From Dehalococcoidia bacterium (lineage in GTDB: Bacteria > Chloroflexota > Dehalococcoidia > GIF9 > AB-539-J10), in the NCBI GenBank assembly GCA_009619075.1, contig WJOY01000020.1, positions 1 through 37,692 of the forward strand: a DNA stretch of 37,692 nt, given 5' to 3'. Positions 1,707 to 36,252 of this stretch are shown here, one piece after another. The notes under the pieces were generated by a model that ran no database searches, was not told where the DNA came from, and was given only the letters and a program-made list of their open reading frames with translations. A program made the position numbers and the translations under genes. The first letter of the stretch is position 1, and each line of letters begins with the position of its first letter.

Positions 1707-2813
1707 ATGAATGACTTCTGTGCCCTTTATATATCGGATTTTTCCATAAGAGATAAACGCACACTCAACACACTGTGTTTATTCTACGACCGTGTTTTTT
1801 TGCATGATTATTTTGGTATATTTCACTGCGTGCAAAACCAAGATATCTACGATAATTATGAAAAGGCAAGCAAAGGGTTAATTGACCCTAACTGGGCAAT
1901 TGCCGGAGGATTAGATTCAGAAACTAAACGTTACTTAAAATCTGCATTTGAGACGGGTTTTGATAATTTTGTTCTAAAAGGAGTGTCCCAAGGTCTTGGA
2001 TGTGCCACTGGCAAATTTAGCCCAACTTTTGTATTGAACTTTGCTAAGACTTACATCGATTTCTTAAGGGCGAATCGTGTTCTTTTCTTTGAGGACGTTC
2101 TCTGCTTTTGCCAGAGCCTACGCAATCCGTTGCACCCAGCACACAGACTAGAAGGCGGGGTCAAGCTAGATTTAAGCTGTTCACAAAAAGAGAATTTTGA
2201 TAGCCTTTCAAAGGCTCTCTTAAATAATAAGTATGCATGTCTATTCGAACAAGAATACCATAGGCTTCCCTTGGTCTCAGATTCAGAAGAGGATCTTCTT
2301 CGCTGGGATCGAGCTAAAGACTTACTTACCACAGCTTTGTTACTAACAGCAATACCTGCTAGAGTACCCACCATATCTGAGGTCACAGCCGACGAAATTC
2401 TCGAAGCAAGAGAAAAATTAAGAGACCTGCTACCGCCGTTTCGTTCTTCTATTCTGAAGGCAGCTTGGGAGATTGCCAAGGCATCACGCGAAACATCTCA
2501 AAAAGAAGTTATGGGACTGGCTCAACTATATTACGAGACCAATATTGTACCCAGCATTTTCGAAATTGAAAGCAAAATAAAATCTGAGAGCAAAAAACTA
2601 TTTCGGAAGCTGATAGAGCAAGGAGTAGACAAGGCCACTCTTGTTGCAAAAGCTTTAGATCCAACCGAGCCCTTTTCCAAGTGGGATTTGATTGGCTCTG
2701 GCCTTAAGTCTCTATTGGATATCGATTCGTCTTGGCAATCAAAGGTCAAGATTAAAGGTCCTTATGAGTTTCTTATAAGATTGCCAAGCGTTATTCGGAG
2801 AAAGAGGTATTAG
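1707..2813 (+). CDS. Cassette 2: orphan protein of unknown function
   Basis: The product is 368 aa and I do not recognise it. It begins MNDFCALYISDFSIRDKRTL, has no signal peptide or clear membrane helix, and has an aromatic- and cysteine-rich N-terminal half. The C-terminal half is charged and helical, with EIESKIKSESKKLF, and the protein ends in the basic string RRKRY. There is no obvious Shine-Dalgarno sequence before the ATG at 1707. A possible promoter (ttgacg at 1632, taaata at 1654, 16-base spacer) lies upstream. It fills the second position of the cassette array, between repeat copies B and C. Cargo genes of tRNA islands often serve in phage defence or stress response, but nothing in this sequence shows which. 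Confidence 0.75.
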   Translation: MNDFCALYISDFSIRDKRTLNTLCLFYDRVFLHDYFGIFHCVQNQDIYDNYEKASKGLIDPNWAIAGGLDSETKRYLKSAFETGFDNFVLKGVSQGLGCATGKFSPTFVLNFAKTYIDFLRANRVLFFEDVLCFCQSLRNPLHPAHRLEGGVKLDLSCSQKENFDSLSKALLNNKYACLFEQEYHRLPLVSDSEEDLLRWDRAKDLLTTALLLTAIPARVPTISEVTADEILEAREKLRDLLPPFRSSILKAAWEIAKASRETSQKEVMGLAQLYYETNIVPSIFEIESKIKSESKKLFRKLIEQGVDKATLVAKALDPTEPFSKWDLIGSGLKSLLDIDSSWQSKVKIKGPYEFLIRLPSVIRRKRY

Positions 2814-2928
2814 ATACCAACGGCGGTGGACGCAGGCTTTGTGGTCTCAACAACGTTAGACGCATTGCCAATTGGGTGTTTCCTGTTTGCCCCTCGGTAG
2901 GCTGATGATGAGAGAAACAGTGAACGAA

Positions 2929-3002
2929 GTTCGGATTTTCCGCCCATGCCGGGAGAAAATTTGCGTTTTTCTGAAGCTAAGCAGCTACAAAATCACCCGA
3001 AC
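2929..3002 (+). repeat. Cassette boundary repeat, copy C
   Basis: The copy is 74 bp and collinear with copy B: gttcggattttcc, a ccg/cgg mini-hairpin around cccatg, gagaaaatttgcg, ctgaagctaagcagctac, and acccgaac at the end. The tail matches copies A and B at most positions over about 50 bases. It separates the second and third cargo genes. Confidence 0.7.
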
Positions 3003-3067
3003 TCAGGCACGTTGATTTGCTTAGGGACACCAGCAAATATTAGTTGTCTAGGAAAGGAGTGAGGTAG

Positions 3068-3748
3068 ATGGACAAAGTGGCTATACGATTCTGGGGGATG
3101 TGGGGGCTGAGTTTGTTAGTGGTGTTAGTTGTAGCAGCTTGCGCTGTAATAGCAGTATGGCTATCGCCTACCCAATACAGTCGGCAAATTGAATCTTCCG
3201 CTCTTGTTCTTGCAGCCATTATGATGGGCTGGTCTGCTTGGCAAAGTAGAAGCATCGCTTACTCAAGCAGGGAACAAATCGAACAAATGAGGCAGCAAAG
3301 GGTGGAAGTGGTGCGCCCGTCGCTGTCTTTGAGACCGGAGCACTATACCGCAGGTGGCGGCTTTATGACTCTGCTCTTGCAAAATACGGGAGGCCTAGCT
3401 AGGGAGGTTAAGATAGACATTGAAGCGACTAATTCACTTGAGAAGAAGTCTCTGTTTATCCCTGCTATTGATACAGAGCACATAGTATATCTCCCGATAG
3501 ACATCCACAAAATTGAGAGAAGTAGTGGCACGGTCAAAGTGAAGGCGTACCTAAAAGATAGCTACAATCGTAACCTTACAGAAGAATTATCTATTGATTT
3601 CGGCATGCTAAGAGCAGAAGACAGGGATTTTGCCTTTCAAGAGGCACCTATGTACAGAGCCTTAGGGAACATCGAGCGAAAGCTAGGAGAAATAGAACGT
3701 AGCTTAAGACAAATAGAAGGTGATTTCAAGCCTATCGGGCGACGTTAG
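3068..3748 (+). CDS. Cassette 3: two-helix membrane protein, related in layout to cassette 1
   Basis: The product is 226 aa and starts at an ATG with a strong aaaggagtgagg site just upstream. Residues about 8-32 and 43-58 are hydrophobic and should form two membrane helices. A Q/R/E-rich stretch (REQIEQMRQQRVEVV) follows, then a soluble domain with PSLSLRPEHY and LLLQNTGGLAREVKIDI, and a C-terminal heptad-like helix (IERKLGEIERSLRQIEGDF). The order of parts matches the cassette 1 protein, and the NxGxxxEVKIDI segment aligns with that protein's NIGLGPALDIGISL. The C-terminal coiled coil is its own feature. Function unknown. Confidence 0.78.
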   Translation: MDKVAIRFWGMWGLSLLVVLVVAACAVIAVWLSPTQYSRQIESSALVLAAIMMGWSAWQSRSIAYSSREQIEQMRQQRVEVVRPSLSLRPEHYTAGGGFMTLLLQNTGGLAREVKIDIEATNSLEKKSLFIPAIDTEHIVYLPIDIHKIERSSGTVKVKAYLKDSYNRNLTEELSIDFGMLRAEDRDFAFQEAPMYRALGNIERKLGEIERSLRQIEGDFKPIGRR

Positions 3749-7556: not shown

Positions 7557-8756
7557 TTAAGTCACAGGAAGCACAACTTTTTCTCCCTCTTTTAGCCCGG
7601 ATAAAACCTCGCTATATATGCCATTGCTTAAACCCAGAGTAACTTGTCTTTTCTCAGTCTCATCGTCGGTGACAACTTCCACCCAGGGGTTTTCCAGAGA
7701 CCCCTGAATAGCTCGATTGGGTATCAGCAATACATTATCACGACGGTTAGTGATAATTTCAGCACTGGCACTCATACCATCTTTAAGTTCTTCATCAGGA
7801 TTTCCCAAAGTTATGGTAATTTTGTAAGACACCTCATCTTCCCAAACTTTGCCCGTTGGGGAGATGAAAGTTACCTTCCCTTTTACTTTTTTATCAGGCA
7901 AAGCAATCAAGGTAATAATGGCTTCCTGCCCCAGCTTCACCTTGGAAATGTCTATCTCGTCAATTTCACCACTCATTTCCACGTTACTGGGGTCAACCAG
8001 GTAGATTGCTGGACTGCTGTATGTCATAGCCGAAAGCTGCTGCCCTTCATCTATATAAACATCGGCTATGATGCCATCGAAAGGAGCAATAATTGTTGCT
8101 TTGGCCAGCTCTAGCTCGACCACAGCTAACTCTAGCTTTGCCATATCTAAAGCTGCTCTGGCTTCATCTGTCTCCAGTTCAGCCAATTTAACACTAAAAG
8201 GCAGCGCCCATGTCCTAGCGTGTGATTTCTTTTGCGCCTTGGATGTGTTCTCCTCAACCAGCTCTAGTAAAGCTTGTGCCCCCTCAATTTCCCCTTGCTC
8301 TAAAAGCTCTTGAGCTTCCTCTAAATTATTCTGGATTTCCTCTAGAGCTAGCCAGACCCCGGGCACGTCAATAGCATAAGTGTTGGTATAATGGGGGTAG
8401 ATTGTTTGCATAAGGTTATTTTCAGCCATTTTGTATTCAGCTTGAGCCATTTCATATCCACCTTGAGCCATCCCTACCCCCATTTCTAAGGGGCGAATAT
8501 CGAGCTTGGCTAATACTTGACCCTCGATTACCTTATCTCCCCTTTCCACCAGTATCTCATCTACTGCTCCCATAGTACCAAATGATAGATATTCCTTATG
8601 ACGCATTTTTAAATTGCCTTCTTTAGCAGAGACACTTATTATTAAATCGCCCCGAGTAACTTCAGCTGTTTGCAAGGGCATTTCTTGCTGGACACATCCG
8701 GCTAAAATTGAGCCAACCAAACACATCGCTATTATTGAAATTAACCATTTTTTCAT
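7557..8756 (-). CDS. HlyD/RND-type membrane fusion lipoprotein (efflux adaptor)
   Basis: The protein is 399 aa. It starts with a lipoprotein signal peptide (MKKWLISIIAMCLVGSILAG followed by Cys), so it should be lipid-anchored on the outer face of the membrane. A biotinyl-lipoyl-like half (GDLIISVSAKEGNL, VDEILVERGDKVIEGQVLAKLD) is followed by a long helical hairpin and then the second lipoyl half (ATIIAPFDGIIADVYIDEGQQL). A beta-barrel region and the C-terminal IPNRAI segment complete the adaptor layout. Adaptors of this kind work with RND or ABC exporters. The only exporter nearby is the MMPL protein just downstream. The start codon overlaps the stop of the upstream micro-ORF (ATGA), which implies coupled translation. 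Confidence 0.92.
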   Translation of the reverse strand: MKKWLISIIAMCLVGSILAGCVQQEMPLQTAEVTRGDLIISVSAKEGNLKMRHKEYLSFGTMGAVDEILVERGDKVIEGQVLAKLDIRPLEMGVGMAQGGYEMAQAEYKMAENNLMQTIYPHYTNTYAIDVPGVWLALEEIQNNLEEAQELLEQGEIEGAQALLELVEENTSKAQKKSHARTWALPFSVKLAELETDEARAALDMAKLELAVVELELAKATIIAPFDGIIADVYIDEGQQLSAMTYSSPAIYLVDPSNVEMSGEIDEIDISKVKLGQEAIITLIALPDKKVKGKVTFISPTGKVWEDEVSYKITITLGNPDEELKDGMSASAEIITNRRDNVLLIPNRAIQGSLENPWVEVVTDDETEKRQVTLGLSNGIYSEVLSGLKEGEKVVLPVT

Positions 8757-8878
8757 TTAATCAGCCTCCTCTTTGGAAACGTCTCCATTTTACTACCACC
8801 GCCAAAGCCCGACAAGACTGGTAACCACACCATAAGTAGAGATACTAAAAGAAACACCTCCAAAATAATTATGCTCAT
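8753..8878 (-). CDS. 41-residue membrane micro-ORF coupled to the efflux adaptor
   Basis: The ORF reads ATG at 8878 to TGA at 8753-8755 without interruption. The product begins MSIIILEVFLLVSLLMVWLP, one membrane helix, and continues with a glycine patch (SGFGGGS) and a basic tail ending FPKRRLIK. A strong gaggagg site lies 4 bases before the ATG. Its TGA overlaps the ATG of the adaptor gene as ATGA, and the adaptor's own site (aggagg) is inside its last codons. Either it is a real small membrane subunit of the exporter or a leader peptide that couples translation. No homologue is known to me. Confidence 0.6.
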   Translation of the reverse strand: MSIIILEVFLLVSLLMVWLPVLSGFGGGSKMETFPKRRLIK

Positions 8879-9004
8879 TGGCCCTCCTCTTATTATTCAT
8901 TTGGAATAACTTTCCACCACATCATTATCGCGCTGCTTTTTGTTTCATACACGCCATCCTACAACTTCTCTAGGCCAAAAAGAAAACGCTGTAAGCCCCC
9001 TGTT

Positions 9005-26790: not shown

Positions 26791-27978
26791 ATGCTGAAAG
26801 GAAAAACTATCATCTTAGGGGTAACAGGAAGCATTGCTGCTTATAAAACAGTGGACATTGCTAGCCAACTAACCCAGGCGGGGGCAAAGGTGGATGTAAT
26901 CATGACTAAAGCAGCCACTGAGTTTGTCACCCCCCTCACATTTCGAGCCATTACCGGGAGGCCTGTAGTTACTGAAATATTTGCATCAGGTTCAGAGTTC
27001 AACGTTGAGCACGTATCACTGGCAGAAGCTGCTAAGGTGATAGTCATTGCTCCGGCTACAGCTAACATTATTGCTAAGCTGGCCGCTGGCATCGCTGATG
27101 ACATGCTATGCTGTACCGTGCTGGCGAGTAAAGCACCTGTAATCATAGCTCCAGCTATGGATGTCAATATGTATCAAAATCCTATCACCCAAGATAACTT
27201 AACTAAATTGAAAGCACGTAACTTCATTACTGTGGGGCCAGCCTCAGGCAGACTAGCTTCAGGCAAGGAAGGTTTAGGGCGGCTTGCTGACACTATTGAT
27301 ATTATAGGCACCATCCAGCAAGTACTAGGAAAAAATGGCGACTTGGCTGACAAGCATATCGTGGTCACTGCCGGTGGCACTCAAGAGCCTATTGATCCCA
27401 TTCGCTGTATCACCAACCGCTCCTCGGGAAAGATGGGATATGCTCTAGCTGAAGCAGCTCGCGACAGAGGAGCTAAAGTAACGCTCATAACGGCACCCAC
27501 TTCGCTCACCAAGCCCGTTGGCATGGAAATAGTTAATGTCTGCACTGCTCAAGAGACATATCAAGCAGTAAGAGACCTTGTCCCTCAAGCTGATGCTCTA
27601 ATAATGGCCGCTGCTGTGGCTGATTACCGCCCTCTAAGTGTAGCCAGAGACAAGATCAAGAAAGAAGGCAATAGATTGACATTGGAGCTAGAGCACACTG
27701 CAGATATCTTAGGTAGTATAAAAGGAGAGTTCATTAGAGTGGGCTTTGCTGCTGAAAGCAGCAACCTGGTGGAAAACGCTAAACAGAAACTCCACCAAAA
27801 GGAGCTCGACCTCATCGTGGCTAATGACATCAGCAGCTTTGGTGCCGACAATAATCAGGTAACCATAATTGACCGAGAGAGCAAAATTGATAGCTTGCCT
27901 CTTTTACCTAAACGAGAAGTAGCTGACAGGATTTTGGATAAAGTGGTTGCGTTGCTTACCGAAAGGAGCAGAAAGTAG
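26791..27978 (+). CDS. coaBC: Bifunctional phosphopantothenoylcysteine decarboxylase/synthase
   Basis: The protein is 395 aa and joins two enzymes. The N-terminal flavin-dependent decarboxylase (CoaC) shows GVTGSIAAYK, the catalytic His in NVEHVSLAE, and PAMDVNMYQNP. The C-terminal synthetase (CoaB) shows TAGGTQEPIDPIRCITNRSS, AAAVADYRP and ANDIS. Together they turn phosphopantothenate and cysteine into phosphopantetheine. The ATG follows gaggag. With coaX this covers three steps of CoA synthesis. Confidence 0.96.
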   Translation: MLKGKTIILGVTGSIAAYKTVDIASQLTQAGAKVDVIMTKAATEFVTPLTFRAITGRPVVTEIFASGSEFNVEHVSLAEAAKVIVIAPATANIIAKLAAGIADDMLCCTVLASKAPVIIAPAMDVNMYQNPITQDNLTKLKARNFITVGPASGRLASGKEGLGRLADTIDIIGTIQQVLGKNGDLADKHIVVTAGGTQEPIDPIRCITNRSSGKMGYALAEAARDRGAKVTLITAPTSLTKPVGMEIVNVCTAQETYQAVRDLVPQADALIMAAAVADYRPLSVARDKIKKEGNRLTLELEHTADILGSIKGEFIRVGFAAESSNLVENAKQKLHQKELDLIVANDISSFGADNNQVTIIDRESKIDSLPLLPKREVADRILDKVVALLTERSRK

Positions 27979-27982
27979 GAAG

Positions 27983-29002
27983 ATGCCAATATTACTGATA
28001 GACGGCGTGACATACGAAGTGTGGACACCCTCAAATGAAGACGAGTTTGAGCAAATAGTCAAGGAACACGCTAAGGATATTTTCGGCGAAGAGTCTATCT
28101 ATCTTGATATAAAACATAAGCTCAAGTCGAAATCAGGAATTGGCTCCATACCTGATGGGTATGTGATCATTTTTGGAGATAAACCACATTGGCATGTCGT
28201 TGAAGTAGAATTATCTTCTCACCCATTATATGAGCACATAGTTCCGCAAGTCAGTAAGTTCATTAACGGTATTAAAAATCCTTCCAGCCAAAAGGAAATA
28301 GTGGATGTTCTTCATGAAGAAATAAGCCGCCACGAAGATCTAATCGCGAAGATAAAGAGCAAAACGGGTCCGGTAGAAATCCATAAATTCCTATCTACCC
28401 TAATTCCCCAGCTACCCAAACTCGCTATAGTCATCGACAAAGAAGCTGAGGAGTTGCGAGAGGCTGTGGAGGGATTAAAGCTGGAAACCGAAATTGTAGA
28501 ATTTGTTACTTTCGTGAGGAAAGACGCTGGTATCTCACAGCATGCCCACCTACTGGAGCCTCTGGAGCCATCATTACCTAACCCAATAGCACGATTTCTT
28601 CAAGAAGTACGGGAGCAATTTGTTGAGAGGAAACCAAGAGTCAAGTGTAGCAAGGTGTATAAACACTATTGCTACATACCAATAAAGGAACATGAAAAAA
28701 TACATGCAGAGTGGCTTTTCTGGGGGGAACACCGATTGGGAGTAGAATTACATTTCCAAAGGGCAAGTCGTGAGGATAATCTTCGCCTTTTAAAAGAGAC
28801 GCAATCGATTAAAGCTGATCTTGAGAGGCGTGTAGGTGAGCCACTTAGCTTTCAGTTCCCCTGGCATAAGAAGTGGGCTCGAATATATACTCTAAAAGAG
28901 CCAATAGAATTAACAAGCGAACTTAAGGAATGGGCTATTAACACCATGGTGAAATTCTATGAAGTGTTTAAACCTATTTTGGATGAGATGGATGTAGAAT
29001 AA
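27983..29002 (+). CDS. PD-(D/E)XK-like protein with DUF4268-type C-terminus
   Basis: The protein is 339 aa from ATG 27983, 4 bases after coaBC. The N-terminal half contains IPDGYVIIF (P57-D58) followed by HWHVVEVEL (E74, E76), a spacing and pattern like the PD-(D/E)XK nuclease core, but with Glu where Lys is usual. The C-terminal half (about 225-339) has WLFWGEHRLGVELHFQ and a final helix ending FKPILDEMDVE, resembling DUF4268 domains found at the end of restriction-like nucleases. Whether it cuts DNA is uncertain because of the replaced Lys. It lies in an otherwise house-keeping run between coaBC and valS. Confidence 0.7.
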   Translation: MPILLIDGVTYEVWTPSNEDEFEQIVKEHAKDIFGEESIYLDIKHKLKSKSGIGSIPDGYVIIFGDKPHWHVVEVELSSHPLYEHIVPQVSKFINGIKNPSSQKEIVDVLHEEISRHEDLIAKIKSKTGPVEIHKFLSTLIPQLPKLAIVIDKEAEELREAVEGLKLETEIVEFVTFVRKDAGISQHAHLLEPLEPSLPNPIARFLQEVREQFVERKPRVKCSKVYKHYCYIPIKEHEKIHAEWLFWGEHRLGVELHFQRASREDNLRLLKETQSIKADLERRVGEPLSFQFPWHKKWARIYTLKEPIELTSELKEWAINTMVKFYEVFKPILDEMDVE

Positions 29003-29104: not shown

Positions 29105-31813
29105 ATGTCAAATCAGATCCCCAAAGCCTACGAGCCAGGTAAGATAGAGGAGAAGTGGTATAATTTCTGGCTTGAGCAAGGCTATTTTACCCCTAAAATA
29201 GACCCCAGCAAGAAGCCTTTCGTTGTTATTATGCCGCCACCCAATGTCACCGGCGAGCTCCATTTGGGGCATGCTCTGACTGATACACTAGAGGACATTA
29301 TGGTTAGGTGGCACCGGATGAAGGGAGAGCCTACCCTATGGCTGCCTGGGACTGACCACGCTGGCATTGCCACACAAGTGGTTGTAGAACAGGAGTTAGC
29401 TAAGCAAGGACTAACCAAGAATGATATCGGTAGGGAAAAATTCTTAAGAATAATCTGGGAGTGGGCAAATAAGAGTCGGAGGAATATTAACTCTCAGCAC
29501 CAGATGTTGGGGACTTCCTGTGATTGGACACGAGATTGCTTCACCTTGGACGAAGGTCCAAGCAGAGCCGTCCGCACTGCCTTTGTCCGCCTCTATAACA
29601 AAGGATTAATCTATCGAGGAGAACGAATAATAAACTGGTGCCCAAGGTGCCAGACTGCTCTTTCCGACCTCGAGGTAGATTACAAGAGTATTACTGGACA
29701 CCTCTATTATGTCCGCTACCCTCTGACAGCTGATAGCTCTCAGCTGACAGCTATCAGATTTGTCACCGTAGCTACTACCCGCCCCGAAACGCTTCTTGGT
29801 GACACCGCTGTAGCGGTAAATCCCAAAGATAGGCGCTACGAGAATTTGGTGGGAAAAGACGTCATCCTTCCTCTTGTAAATAAAAAAATACCCGTCATCG
29901 CTGATGATGCTGTTGACCCCTTCTTTGGCACCGGGGTGTTAAAGATAACTCCAGCTCATGACCCTACAGATTTTGAAGTAGCTGAACGGCATAATTTGCC
30001 CTTGGTAAATATTATGAACCTTGACGCTACTATGAACGAAAATGCTGGACCTTATGTAAACCTGGAACGCTTCGTTTGCCGCGACAAAGTAGTGGCTGAC
30101 CTAAAAGATAAAGGATTATTGGAGAAAATCGAGCCCTACCCCCATTCAGTAGGGCACTGTAACCGCTGCCAAACGATGATCGAACCTAAAGCCAGCCGGC
30201 AATGGTTTATTCGCACCAGTCCTCTGGCTGAAGCTGCTATTAAAGCTGTTAAAGAGGGTGATATCACCATAGTTCCCGAGCGCTTCACCAAAGTATACTT
30301 TGACTGGATGGAAAATATCCGGGATTGGTGCATCAGCCGACAACTATGGTGGGGACACCGCATCCCAGTATGGCACTGCCAAGACTGCAGCAAGCTAACC
30401 GCATCGGCAGATGAGCCTTTAGCATGTGAGCATTGCGGCTCAAATCAAATTGTCCAAGACCCCGATGTCCTTGATACCTGGTTTAGCTCAGGGTTATGGA
30501 CGCACTCCACATTAGGCTGGCCAGATGATACCGATGACCTTCGTTATTTCTATCCCACCTCGGTAATGGAAACTGGCTATGACATCCTTTTCTTCTGGGT
30601 CGCTAGAATGATCATGATGGGGCTGGAAGATACTGGTGAAATTCCCTTCCATACTGTTTACCTCCATGGCTTGCTTCGAGACGAAAATGGAGAAAAAATG
30701 AGTAAGCTGCGGGGAAATGTCATTAACCCCACTGAGGCTATAAGTGAATACGGTGTTGATGCTCTTCGCTTCGCCCTGATCATCGGCAGCTCCCCCGGGA
30801 ATGATATAAACTTGGGCCAAGGGAGACTGAAGTCTAGCCGCAATTTCGCCAATAAATTATGGAATGCCACCCGATTCATCTTCCAGAGTATAGATGCTGA
30901 AGCGCTAAAATGCCGCACCTTACAAGTAGATGTCATTGCGAGCGAAGCGAAGCAAACTCAAGGATCACGGAGGGTGGAAGATCGCTGGATTCACAGCCAG
31001 CTCAACCGCCTTATCATCAATGTTACCAAACTGATGGAAGACTTCCAATTTGGCGAAGCAGAGCAGCAAATCCACGATTTCATCTGGTCAGAATTCTGTG
31101 ATTGGTATATTGAATTTGCCAAGATACGCCTTGGCAACCAATCACCTCCCTCACCTTTGCCTTTCTTGGTAAACACCCTGGGAATATCGCTCCGCCTCCT
31201 GCACCCTTCCATGCCTTTCATTACCGAGGAACTATGGCAAAGCTTAAAGCAGCGGCTACCCAATAAAAGCCAAATGCCAGCTTCCATAATGATAGCTCCA
31301 TATCCTACCTCTAATGAGAAAGCCATCGACCCCGAAGCAGAAAAGGCTATGGATGCAGTGATAGAGATTATCCGCTCCATCCGTAATGCTCGCTCCCAAT
31401 ATAAAGTAGCACCGGCTAAATGGATTAAGGCTCAGGTCTATGCAGACAATCACTTGCCTTATATTACCTCTCAAGCCAAAGCTATAGAAACATTGGCTCG
31501 GGCCCGCCCTTTAGCTATTCTCAATCGACAAGAAAGGAAAGCTGGTAAAGAAAAGGCACTCATTCTAGTTCTGAAAGAAGCCGAGGTAGTTTTGCCTTGG
31601 ACAGGCATGATAGATCAGCTTGCTGAAAAGAAGCGCTTAATAAAGGAAAAGGAATTAGCCCAAGCCAGGATTGCTCAACTTAATACACGGTTAAGGGATA
31701 ATGCTTTTCTGACCAAAGCACCACCGCATATCGTGGAAAAGGAAAAACAGAAACTTTACCTGCTTAAAGACAAATTGGAAAGATTAAAATCAGAACTATC
31801 TCAGCTCGATTAA
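29105..31813 (+). CDS. valS: Valyl-tRNA synthetase with in-frame repeat insertions
   Basis: The protein is 902 aa, within the family range, and charges tRNA-Val. HLGH (53-56) and KMSKL (near 530) are the two class I signature motifs. The editing domain has VATTRPETLLGDTAV, and the C-terminal coiled coil (about 830-900) is complete. Two segments are unusual: TADSSQLTAIR in the editing domain entry (about 208-218), encoded by a palindrome, and VIASEAKQTQGSR (about 610-622), encoded by a dispersed repeat. Both look like loop insertions that kept the frame. The 3' end overlaps the convergent gene 31810-32484 by 4 bases. No T-box leader is visible. Confidence 0.96.
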   Translation: MSNQIPKAYEPGKIEEKWYNFWLEQGYFTPKIDPSKKPFVVIMPPPNVTGELHLGHALTDTLEDIMVRWHRMKGEPTLWLPGTDHAGIATQVVVEQELAKQGLTKNDIGREKFLRIIWEWANKSRRNINSQHQMLGTSCDWTRDCFTLDEGPSRAVRTAFVRLYNKGLIYRGERIINWCPRCQTALSDLEVDYKSITGHLYYVRYPLTADSSQLTAIRFVTVATTRPETLLGDTAVAVNPKDRRYENLVGKDVILPLVNKKIPVIADDAVDPFFGTGVLKITPAHDPTDFEVAERHNLPLVNIMNLDATMNENAGPYVNLERFVCRDKVVADLKDKGLLEKIEPYPHSVGHCNRCQTMIEPKASRQWFIRTSPLAEAAIKAVKEGDITIVPERFTKVYFDWMENIRDWCISRQLWWGHRIPVWHCQDCSKLTASADEPLACEHCGSNQIVQDPDVLDTWFSSGLWTHSTLGWPDDTDDLRYFYPTSVMETGYDILFFWVARMIMMGLEDTGEIPFHTVYLHGLLRDENGEKMSKLRGNVINPTEAISEYGVDALRFALIIGSSPGNDINLGQGRLKSSRNFANKLWNATRFIFQSIDAEALKCRTLQVDVIASEAKQTQGSRRVEDRWIHSQLNRLIINVTKLMEDFQFGEAEQQIHDFIWSEFCDWYIEFAKIRLGNQSPPSPLPFLVNTLGISLRLLHPSMPFITEELWQSLKQRLPNKSQMPASIMIAPYPTSNEKAIDPEAEKAMDAVIEIIRSIRNARSQYKVAPAKWIKAQVYADNHLPYITSQAKAIETLARARPLAILNRQERKAGKEKALILVLKEAEVVLPWTGMIDQLAEKKRLIKEKELAQARIAQLNTRLRDNAFLTKAPPHIVEKEKQKLYLLKDKLERLKSELSQLD
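29730..29757. repeat. Palindrome inside valS
   Basis: Arms ctgatagct (29730-29738) and agctatcag (29749-29757) are perfect inverted repeats with a 10-base loop, and the flanks add ctgacagct copies. It encodes part of the TADSSQLTAIR insertion. Confidence 0.55.
30932..30966. repeat. Dispersed repeat copy inside valS
   Basis: The sequence gtcattgcgagcgaagcgaa followed by gcaaactcaaggatc is the complement of the copy at 36224-36252. It is translated in frame as VIASEAKQTQGS. Confidence 0.75.
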
Positions 31814-32484
31814 GAAACTTTGTGGTTTTTTAGCCCCATATAATGGTGTAGCTTCACTAAGGCTTTTTGGGTATCACTGGCAACACAGGATTTGTCACTT
31901 CCCTTTAGACGCTGCTTAAATAACCAATAGGTAAATTCATTAACCTCAGTCAAACTCATAGACTTACGCTTAGGATAATGTTTCTCCTTCCTGAAGCGAG
32001 CAATCAACTCCTGTTGAGTGGCACCATAGATGCGTCGATACGCCTCGTCAATTACCCCTCCATCCTTGACCAAGCCCAAAGCCCGCTTTCTTTTGCGGAC
32101 CTCTTCAGCTATAGCTAAAAGCAAAATTTGCTCCACAAGGACACCATAAAGATAGTTGAGATAAGCTTGATACTTGGCCTTACCAACTAATTCTCTAAAT
32201 TCATCTTTAGTCAATTCTATTGGTGGCCGGTCAAAGAAAAGAAGAGCAATTAGTTCATTCTCCGGGATAAGCCCATCAACCTCTTCACATAACCGCTCCG
32301 CCAGAACCAGCCAATCAAAAGCTTCATTGTCAATAAGATACCGATAGTGACGTCCCTTGTAATCTTCCTCAGGACTAGTCCACAATTTGATGGCTTCAAG
32401 TAAGGCTAAATACCAATGCTTACCAGCGGCAATAGCCTCTTTTAGATGTTCAATTGCCTGGGTATCGCCGGCACTGGAGGACAT
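31810..32484 (-). CDS. Conserved hypothetical, helical cytoplasmic protein
   Basis: The protein is 224 aa from ATG 32484, which has agggg upstream; a GTG at 32502 is the alternative. I do not recognise a named family. It is nearly all helical and charged, with no signal peptide or membrane helix. Stretches such as HWYLALLEAIKLW, FDWLVLAERLCEEVDGLIP and RYLIDNEAFDWL are conserved-looking, and the C-terminus is basic. It lies last in the - strand run that begins with the EVE gene, 62 bases after the HAD gene, and overlaps the valS stop. Confidence 0.75.
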   Translation of the reverse strand: MSSSAGDTQAIEHLKEAIAAGKHWYLALLEAIKLWTSPEEDYKGRHYRYLIDNEAFDWLVLAERLCEEVDGLIPENELIALLFFDRPPIELTKDEFRELVGKAKYQAYLNYLYGVLVEQILLLAIAEEVRKRKRALGLVKDGGVIDEAYRRIYGATQQELIARFRKEKHYPKRKSMSLTEVNEFTYWLFKQRLKGSDKSCVASDTQKALVKLHHYMGLKNHKVS

Positions 32485-32545
32485 TATACTTACCCCTAAC
32501 ACTCCCTAATTTTATATCAATTATATCCCTGTCATCCTTGAGGGC

Positions 32546-34992: not shown

Positions 34993-35226
34993 CTATTTGT
35001 GTTCAGGTGCTAAGACCTTAACCTTCTCCCTTATCCACTCCCAATCAGGATTGCCGTGGTTGAAGAAAGACTTGAAATTATCCTTCAGCCACTCGTAATA
35101 ATCATCTTCAACAAATTGACAGAAAGCCTCTACGAGGTCTTCCTTTGAAATGTTCTTGGGAATTTCTAACTCCATATCTTCAAACTCGCAATCAAGGAAT
35201 TCTTTAACTACCGTTCTATCAAGCAT
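34993..35226 (-). CDS. Small acidic protein of unknown function
   Basis: The protein is 77 aa with a strong aaggagg site before its ATG. It is acidic (EFEDMELEI; FVEDDYYEW) and rich in aromatic residues (DWEWIREKV) and has no membrane helix. I do not recognise it. It lies between the EVE-nuclease-like gene (40 bases upstream) and polX. An antitoxin- or inhibitor-like partner for the EVE protein is conceivable from size, charge and position only. Confidence 0.7.
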   Translation of the reverse strand: MLDRTVVKEFLDCEFEDMELEIPKNISKEDLVEAFCQFVEDDYYEWLKDNFKSFFNHGNPDWEWIREKVKVLAPEHK

Positions 35227-35266: not shown

Positions 35267-36085
35267 CTATATGCCAAGCTCCCTTTCAAAGTCCAAGTAG
35301 GATCTCTTGCGTTTATAAAGTTCATCTACTTTGTCTAACTCAATAAACTTTATGCGCTCGCTAATTTCGTGAAAACTTCCCAAAAGCAACTTTCTCGCCT
35401 TCTCTTGGTTCTCCTGAGACACCACAAGAAAAAGGCGACTATTCCAGAGATCGAAAGCGTGCTTTAGTTTAGCTAAGGCATGATAAAGGTCTCCTCCAAC
35501 TTGAATCTCAAATACATAAGTAGGCACAGAACGTTCTATTCGTCTCCAGACAACATCAAGTTTCCCTATGTCAAAGGGATATTCTGGTTCGGCGATATAA
35601 CTTTGAAGTTTCCCAATCTCAATCAGTTTCTGTTTAAGTTCTTCATGTAAAGACAAAGGCCGCTCTGCTTCCTCAAGCTCAGATATTGGCAAAAATTGCG
35701 AGAGCACTTGGCGAGCCAGCTCATCATCAACTAACTGAAAGCCTCTACCGGCTTTAAGCTTCAATACATCTGCGGTTTTTGCATGTGTTTTCCATTCATT
35801 AGGAGGAAGACAATATTCTACGTTAAATTCGAAACGTAATGGCCATATTACCTTTCCTTGGGTTATTTCGTCAGGCCAAAGTGGTTCACTCTGCCGAAAT
35901 TTAGTTTGAACCGTGCCATATCCAATTACTCCACTAATGGGCTGTGTAGCGTAAAATAGCACAGTATCAGCTTGAACAAGGGATTCCCATAAGTGTTTTT
36001 GTCTCACTGTGAGACCCCAAATATTCTTGTGTTTAAAAGCAGCTTCCCAATTCCCAAGCGGACCTACTGCTAGCCAATAATTCAT
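35267..36085 (-). CDS. EVE-domain protein fused to a PD-(D/E)XK-like domain
   Basis: The protein is 272 aa from ATG 36085 with ggagg 8 bases upstream. Residues 1 to about 130 match the EVE (PUA-like) fold: YWLAVGPLGNWEAA, VLFYATQPISGVIGYGTV and WPLRFEFNVEY. EVE domains bind modified bases in DNA. Residues about 145-250 contain IGKLDVVW (D177) and YVFEIQVGGDL (E193, Q195), followed by a helix and LFLVVS, like a PD-(D/E)XK nuclease core with Gln in place of Lys. Together this is the layout of a modification-dependent restriction enzyme, or of an inactive reader. Activity is not shown by the sequence. Confidence 0.75.
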   Translation of the reverse strand: MNYWLAVGPLGNWEAAFKHKNIWGLTVRQKHLWESLVQADTVLFYATQPISGVIGYGTVQTKFRQSEPLWPDEITQGKVIWPLRFEFNVEYCLPPNEWKTHAKTADVLKLKAGRGFQLVDDELARQVLSQFLPISELEEAERPLSLHEELKQKLIEIGKLQSYIAEPEYPFDIGKLDVVWRRIERSVPTYVFEIQVGGDLYHALAKLKHAFDLWNSRLFLVVSQENQEKARKLLLGSFHEISERIKFIELDKVDELYKRKRSYLDFERELGI

Positions 36086-36223
36086 CAACTATTCCTCCCT
36101 TTTGTTCTCCTCTTTTAAACCGTGCCTCTGGCGCGATTCTCTAATCAGGGCTGAAATATCAAATTACGTTCCTGTTCTAGCTTTGATTTTCTTCATAACG
36201 TCTCCTCCCTATCCACAAAATGC

Positions 36224-36252
36224 TGAGATTGCTTCGCTTCGCTCGCAATGAC
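36224..36252. repeat. Dispersed repeat, clearest copy
   Basis: The copy begins tgagattgcttcgcttcgct and ends cgcaatgac. It lies between the secA stop and the EVE gene. Relatives are at 16067-16118, 20175-20198, 30932-30966 and 36691-36731, and the last part recurs in the 96-bp element at 16443-16538. Confidence 0.75.

Follow-up and report, generated by a model that had tools for sequence, protein, structure and literature searches.

We describe a gene of a Dehalococcoidia bacterium whose product joins an N-terminal EVE domain to a C-terminal domain of the PD-(D/E)XK nuclease fold. With a probability of about two in three, we predict that this protein is a solitary modification-dependent (type IV-like) restriction endonuclease. 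This reading is favoured because, in relatives, the chromosomal slot that holds the gene is occupied by other R-M systems. A preliminary description of the locus had proposed either a modification-dependent restriction enzyme or a reader without cleavage. The former is favoured as a prediction, mainly from the slot and from neighbouring R-M genes, and a non-cleaving reader appears less likely.

The gene lies in the window (the whole stretch of 37,692 nucleotides that was analysed), which is part of a 936-kb assembly of 47 contigs and 68% completeness whose close relatives are Dehalococcoidia. The ORF list and translation gave an open reading frame at 35267–36088 (−), encoding 273 amino acids when counted from a TTG start; residues are numbered throughout with this TTG codon as 1. 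An in-frame ATG at 36085, one codon past the TTG, gives a protein of 272 amino acids and is the likelier start, because a GGGAGG ribosome-binding site is located 8 nt before it. The frame of 35267–36085 given earlier is therefore real, its boundary at 36085 being this ATG. Upstream on the same strand is secA, at 181 nt; downstream are a 77-aa ORF (34993–35226, −), after a gap of 40 nt, and polX, after a further 47 nt. The 77-aa product is acidic (pI 4.5) and is a possible co-expressed partner of the fusion protein. The interval between secA and the fusion gene also contains one of two copies (0–1 mismatch) of a short repeat, GCGAGCGAAGCGAAGCAATCTCA, at 36224–36246 (−); the other is located at 30938–30960 (+), within the valS reading frame. 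No such pair is expected by chance, and the repeat is perhaps a small mobile element able to enter genes in frame.

The N-terminal EVE domain, of the PUA superfamily, comprises residues 1–130 (35699–36088, −). In Pfam searches the window protein matched neither EVE nor a nuclease family, HNH included, and its match to NCBIfam PRK00809/UPF0310 was weak (4e-8, residues 2–88, under the PRK00809 cut-off). As the window protein itself has no Pfam match, profile evidence was taken from its relatives. Pfam EVE (PF01878) was matched by 25 of 49 of them, with a best value of 4e-14, and PRK00809 by 28 of 49. The full-length AlphaFold model had a mean pLDDT of 89.7, and Foldseek searches with it retrieved the UPF0310/EVE structures 2p5d (8e-7) and 1wmm (1e-6), followed by YTH domains and the EVE-HNH enzyme VcaM4I (5e-4). 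A profile of the domain also matched 2p5d (2e-6). Residues W24, G25, W34 and W71 were invariant in 20 proteins spanning two reader types, including three archaeal proteins with a different EVE-like reader. From the model and the profiles in relatives, the EVE/PUA fold proposed for residues 1–130 holds. By analogy with characterized EVE domains, it probably reads chemically modified DNA bases.

The C-terminal domain (C-domain) spans residues 147–273 (35270–35650, −), with the fold itself at 147–250. An AlphaFold2 model built from an alignment of 44 diverse sequences (pLDDT 95, pTM 0.87) showed the order α-β-β-β-α-β, as in PD-(D/E)XK nucleases. The best Foldseek neighbours in the PDB were EcoT38I (probability 0.99) and SfsA (0.98); both have only 9–17% identity to the C-domain and share no architecture with it. 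Other matches were the R2 retrotransposon protein, I-Bth0305I and BstEII. E-values were modest (best 8e-3), though the probabilities were 0.98–0.99. Matches in a library of viral models were enriched for the annotations endonuclease, PD-(D/E)XK nuclease and restriction endonuclease. A profile of the C-domain found nothing among PDB sequences. No Pfam nuclease family was matched among 49 members, and the domain is accordingly not classed as an Mrr catalytic domain. The model and the lack of an HNH match also set it apart from the nuclease of VcaM4I-like EVE-HNH enzymes. PADLOC yielded weak matches (REase_II in 3 of 44 C-domains, with 9e-4 the best value; PDC-M12A, 0.005), and these were not counted as evidence. 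We conclude that the predicted PD-(D/E)XK fold of residues 147–250 holds at the level of the model, and that no other fold emerged in its place.

The same model places the predicted metal ligands Asp178 (codon 35555–35557, −) on strand 2 and Glu194 (35507–35509, −) on strand 3. The latter strand also carries Gln196 (35501–35503, −) at the position of the classical lysine. The Asp...Glu-x-Gln core noticed in the preliminary description is thus present, in an order that matches strands 2 and 3. In a survey of 56 homologous C-domains, L208, D178 and E194 were the sole invariant columns, likewise in 49 longer proteins. D178 and E194 were also invariant in all 29 sequences of a set reduced to ≤60% identity. 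The lysine expected two residues after the strand-3 acid was never found. Position 196 is Q in 33 of the 56 sequences, H in 11, C and E in 3 each, and N, S and V in 2 each, and neither K nor R occurs there in the 56 or in the 29-sequence set. Near-invariant positions are E169 (50 of 56; strand 1; codon 35582–35584, −), which may add an acidic residue to the active site, H148 (53 of 56), and H210 (53 of 56; helix 2; codon 35459–35461, −), which its conservation marks as a candidate catalytic helper. We do not claim that the lysine has moved to helix 2 (K207/K209): among the 56 sequences, 47 have K or R at position 207, which is hence not invariant. Among 17 proteins, mean pairwise identity was 63% in the C-domain and 52% in the EVE domain, and the C-domain was the more conserved of the two in 127 of 136 pairs.

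The missing lysine raises the alternative of a non-cutting C-domain, in which the PD-(D/E)XK fold would be a scaffold for nucleic-acid binding or dimerization. Consistent with this, position 196 is never lysine, and is Val or Cys in 5 of 56 sequences. However, active type II enzymes of this superfamily are known with an altered residue here, namely Gln in BglII and NotI, Glu in BamHI and Asn in MspI (PMC4081073), so the loss of lysine alone neither makes the C-domain a dead enzyme nor bars it from the superfamily. These enzymes resemble the C-domain in fold and in the change at this position, but have sequence-specific methyltransferase partners, no EVE domain and no detectable sequence similarity to it. 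Asp178 and Glu194 are invariant across all the module fusions described below. Inactivated copies usually lose their metal ligands. As these ligands persist unchanged under different N-terminal modules, and as Gln, Glu or Asn is found in active enzymes, we regard a non-cleaving reader as quite improbable, and a restriction endonuclease as the better description.

Gene context fits restriction better than repair. In Dehalococcoidia the locus reads secA, a variable slot, the 77-aa gene, polX, a gene for a 230-aa protein without an assigned family, and valS; the EVE fusion fills the slot on the secA side in a minority of genomes. In a genome of the same genus (G400), the slot contains a BsaWI-type restriction enzyme (PF18643, 4e-14) and an N6_N4 methyltransferase, followed by the 77-aa gene; secA is on the same contig as this cassette, ∼3.4 kb away. 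In a member of another genus (G419), the slot is occupied by an EVE-like/PD-(D/E)XK gene and a methyltransferase gene that overlap, again followed by the 77-aa gene, and in a further genome (G425) it is a methyltransferase with an HNH-type gene. In other relatives the slot holds PIN or ParE toxin–antitoxin genes or is empty. In two more genomes (G406 and G434), the 77-aa gene is immediately preceded by R-M genes, observed at the 77-aa side only. The replacement of one restriction system by another at this single site beside secA is the strongest contextual argument for a restriction role.

The 77-aa gene directly follows the EVE fusion in most Dehalococcoidia loci and directly follows unrelated R-M cassettes in relatives. 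It also occurs without an EVE fusion or R-M cassette in three genomes (G130, G445 and G414) and is decayed in several. Its product could possibly be a helper or regulator of restriction cassettes, or the gene may merely be a fixed part of the locus. Two other genes of the region were observed. The 230-aa protein (31810–32502, −) belongs to no Pfam family and is kept between polX/secA and valS in most of the Dehalococcoidia loci read. A 351-aa gene (27947–29002, +) located between coaBC and valS encodes a C-terminal DUF4268 (6.5e-7) and an N-terminal D...E-x-E stretch resembling a PD-(D/E)XK core; a relative of this gene is also found beside valS in locus L002.

The main doubt about a solitary enzyme comes from methyltransferases, which hint that the protein might instead be the restriction half of a conventional R-M pair, cutting unmodified DNA while a methyltransferase that is adjacent, elsewhere or lost protects the host. 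A close homologue (L120/L027) is preceded by an N6_N4 methyltransferase gene (8e-44), with 142 nt between the end of that gene and the fusion gene. Together with the lysine missing from every member, this arrangement weighs against the preferred reading, as it would fit such a pair; so would the overlapping genes in the slot of G419 and the single N6_N4 methyltransferase of the window's genome (68% complete), which is on another contig. On the other hand, with neighbours recognized by eye, no methyltransferase was seen beside the fusion gene in the window or in the bacterial loci L001–L018. We consider a conventional pair unlikely. In locus L096, an EVE-like/PD-(D/E)XK gene (2048–3124, −; motif E-V-K) overlaps an N6_N4 methyltransferase gene (1135–2079, −). 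This seems to be an R-M pair whose R protein has a domain resembling a modification reader, the EVE match being only 0.013. Mutual exclusion of C5-methyltransferases and the EVE gene, considered as a sign of 5mC reading, was not seen, both being present in two genomes (G424 and G436). Because of this co-occurrence, a protein that reads strictly 5mC would have to rely on the context of the site as well.

The position of polX, two genes downstream of the fusion gene on the same strand, had suggested an operon with this repair polymerase. A further alternative is an accessory nuclease working with PolX on damaged bases. Within the window, polX does follow on the same strand, and it lies near the fusion gene in three other loci (L003, L005 and L007). 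However, the 77-aa gene intervenes, with gaps of 40 and 47 nt, and the linkage is not conserved. In five relatives (L002, L006, L009, L010 and L012), PolX is reduced to an N-terminal remnant of ∼90 residues (the HhH part) with the EVE gene intact; in two of these loci, the remnant after the EVE gene is an open frame of 97–100 aa. The remnant is possibly a retained N-terminal domain or a product of decay. A functional pairing of the fusion with PolX is unlikely because of this reduction, and the repair link was rejected. As the fusion gene is moreover absent from most relatives and its homologues in other phyla are not beside polX, a repair accessory is the hardest of the proposed roles to credit.

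R-M genes also adjoin the gene in archaea. The neighbours of archaeal homologues are a type I R-M system in L127, Eco57I-like R-M enzymes in L128, L129 and L133, and DUF1156/DUF499 genes in L132; another homologue is near an SNF2 helicase (L134). According to Bell et al. (PMC7641849), archaeal stand-alone EVE proteins partner SNF2/COG1743/DUF499 systems. Several other archaeal and bacterial loci that were read showed no R-M-type neighbours of this kind. In one archaeal locus (L135), a second, stand-alone EVE-like ORF (8436–8981, −) lies ∼2.6 kb from the family member.

Homologues of the fusion gene were found in Chloroflexota, Planctomycetota, Poribacteria, Desulfobacterota and archaea, and their presence is patchy. 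The C-domain is matched in 12 of 52 genomes of the family, counting divergent copies with other N-termini, and in 4 of 400 in the phylum; broken copies of the fusion gene occur in two loci (L018 and L034). The gene tree is weakly resolved. The close relatedness of the genes from Poribacteria, Desulfobacterota and Planctomycetota suggests, on sequence comparison, horizontal transfer, and does not prove it. Searches of phage, plasmid and viral-contig collections found no member, which counts against the preferred reading. Terminase- or portal-like phage genes were observed a few kb from two Chloroflexota members (L120, 9205–11501; L136, 8704–10146), which suggests carriage on mobile elements.

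The C-domain is joined to different N-terminal modules. A UPF0310-type EVE domain precedes it in bacteria and some archaea. In Thermoproteota, the sequence pattern points to another type of EVE-like reader. A zinc ribbon is a further module, and an Mrr_N winged helix (PF14338, 7e-19 and 1e-16) was found in 3 relatives only of the 49 members scanned. Mrr-type restriction enzymes have Mrr_N at their N-terminus, and restriction enzymes in general are commonly built as a conserved cutter with varying sensors. These fusions also bear on the alternative of an RNA-directed nuclease, in which a PUA-type domain would recognize modified tRNA or phage RNA and be coupled to cleavage, for example in an abortive-infection effector. 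EVE, YTH and PUA domains are described as mostly binding RNA in other contexts (PMC7641849 and PMC7897488), but Mrr_N, to which the C-domain is joined in some relatives, is a winged helix from enzymes that restrict DNA, and DNA R-M systems are among the genes found beside the C-domain. An RNA target is, on this evidence, very improbable. Tentatively, and with considerable reservation, we suggest a wider picture in which the C-domain is a distinct, uncatalogued, lysine-less PD-(D/E)XK family of bacteria and archaea. It would have interchangeable sensors (two EVE-like kinds, Mrr_N and a zinc ribbon) and an altered catalytic centre of E169, D178, E194, Q/H196 and H210, and in Dehalococcoidia the various restriction enzymes found in the slot would have the 77-aa protein as a common helper or regulator.

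For the solitary restriction endonuclease, we propose the following mode of action. The EVE domain, as judged from its family, would flip and bind a modified base in incoming DNA. In the C-domain, Asp178 and Glu194 would hold a divalent metal, and Gln196 would complete the active site, perhaps together with Glu169 and His210; the domain would hydrolyse the DNA, probably as a dimer. As in type IV enzymes, a modification sensor appears fused to a nuclease, the folds being EVE and PD-(D/E)XK and the reading function being that of the EVE family. We infer nuclease activity, a DNA rather than RNA target and modification dependence from this architecture and context.

The architecture has precedents. 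EVE-PD(D/E)XK proteins were predicted as a class of putative type IV restriction endonucleases in 2020 (Bell, Wolf and Koonin, PMC7641849), with the same core architecture of EVE reader and PD-(D/E)XK nuclease and the same inferred role. Set against the general main-text description of that class, the lysine-less motif, the module exchange and the secA–polX slot are the features described here. VcaM4I, an EVE-HNH enzyme, flips 5mC and 5hmC and holds the base between aromatic residues, and its restriction of phage T4gt has been tested (PMC7897488). It shares with the fusion protein an N-terminal EVE sensor, matched by Foldseek, and a C-terminal nuclease, which is HNH in VcaM4I and PD-(D/E)XK here. 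Mrr-type endonucleases share the Mrr_N winged helix (PF14338, 7e-19) with relatives of the C-domain and differ in their catalytic domain. The EVE-PD(D/E)XK architecture is thus already known as a prediction (PMC7641849), and EVE-HNH enzymes as proven (PMC7897488). As far as the libraries searched show, the uniformly lysine-less motif, the sensor exchange and the restriction slot appear to be new.

If this reading is true, uncultured Chloroflexota and many archaea have a compact family of modification-dependent restriction enzymes with an unusual active site. The family would be a blind spot of defence-gene detection, as Pfam does not cover it and PADLOC barely does, and would be a candidate tool to map DNA modifications. 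The chromosomal slot beside secA is a site where different restriction systems replace one another.
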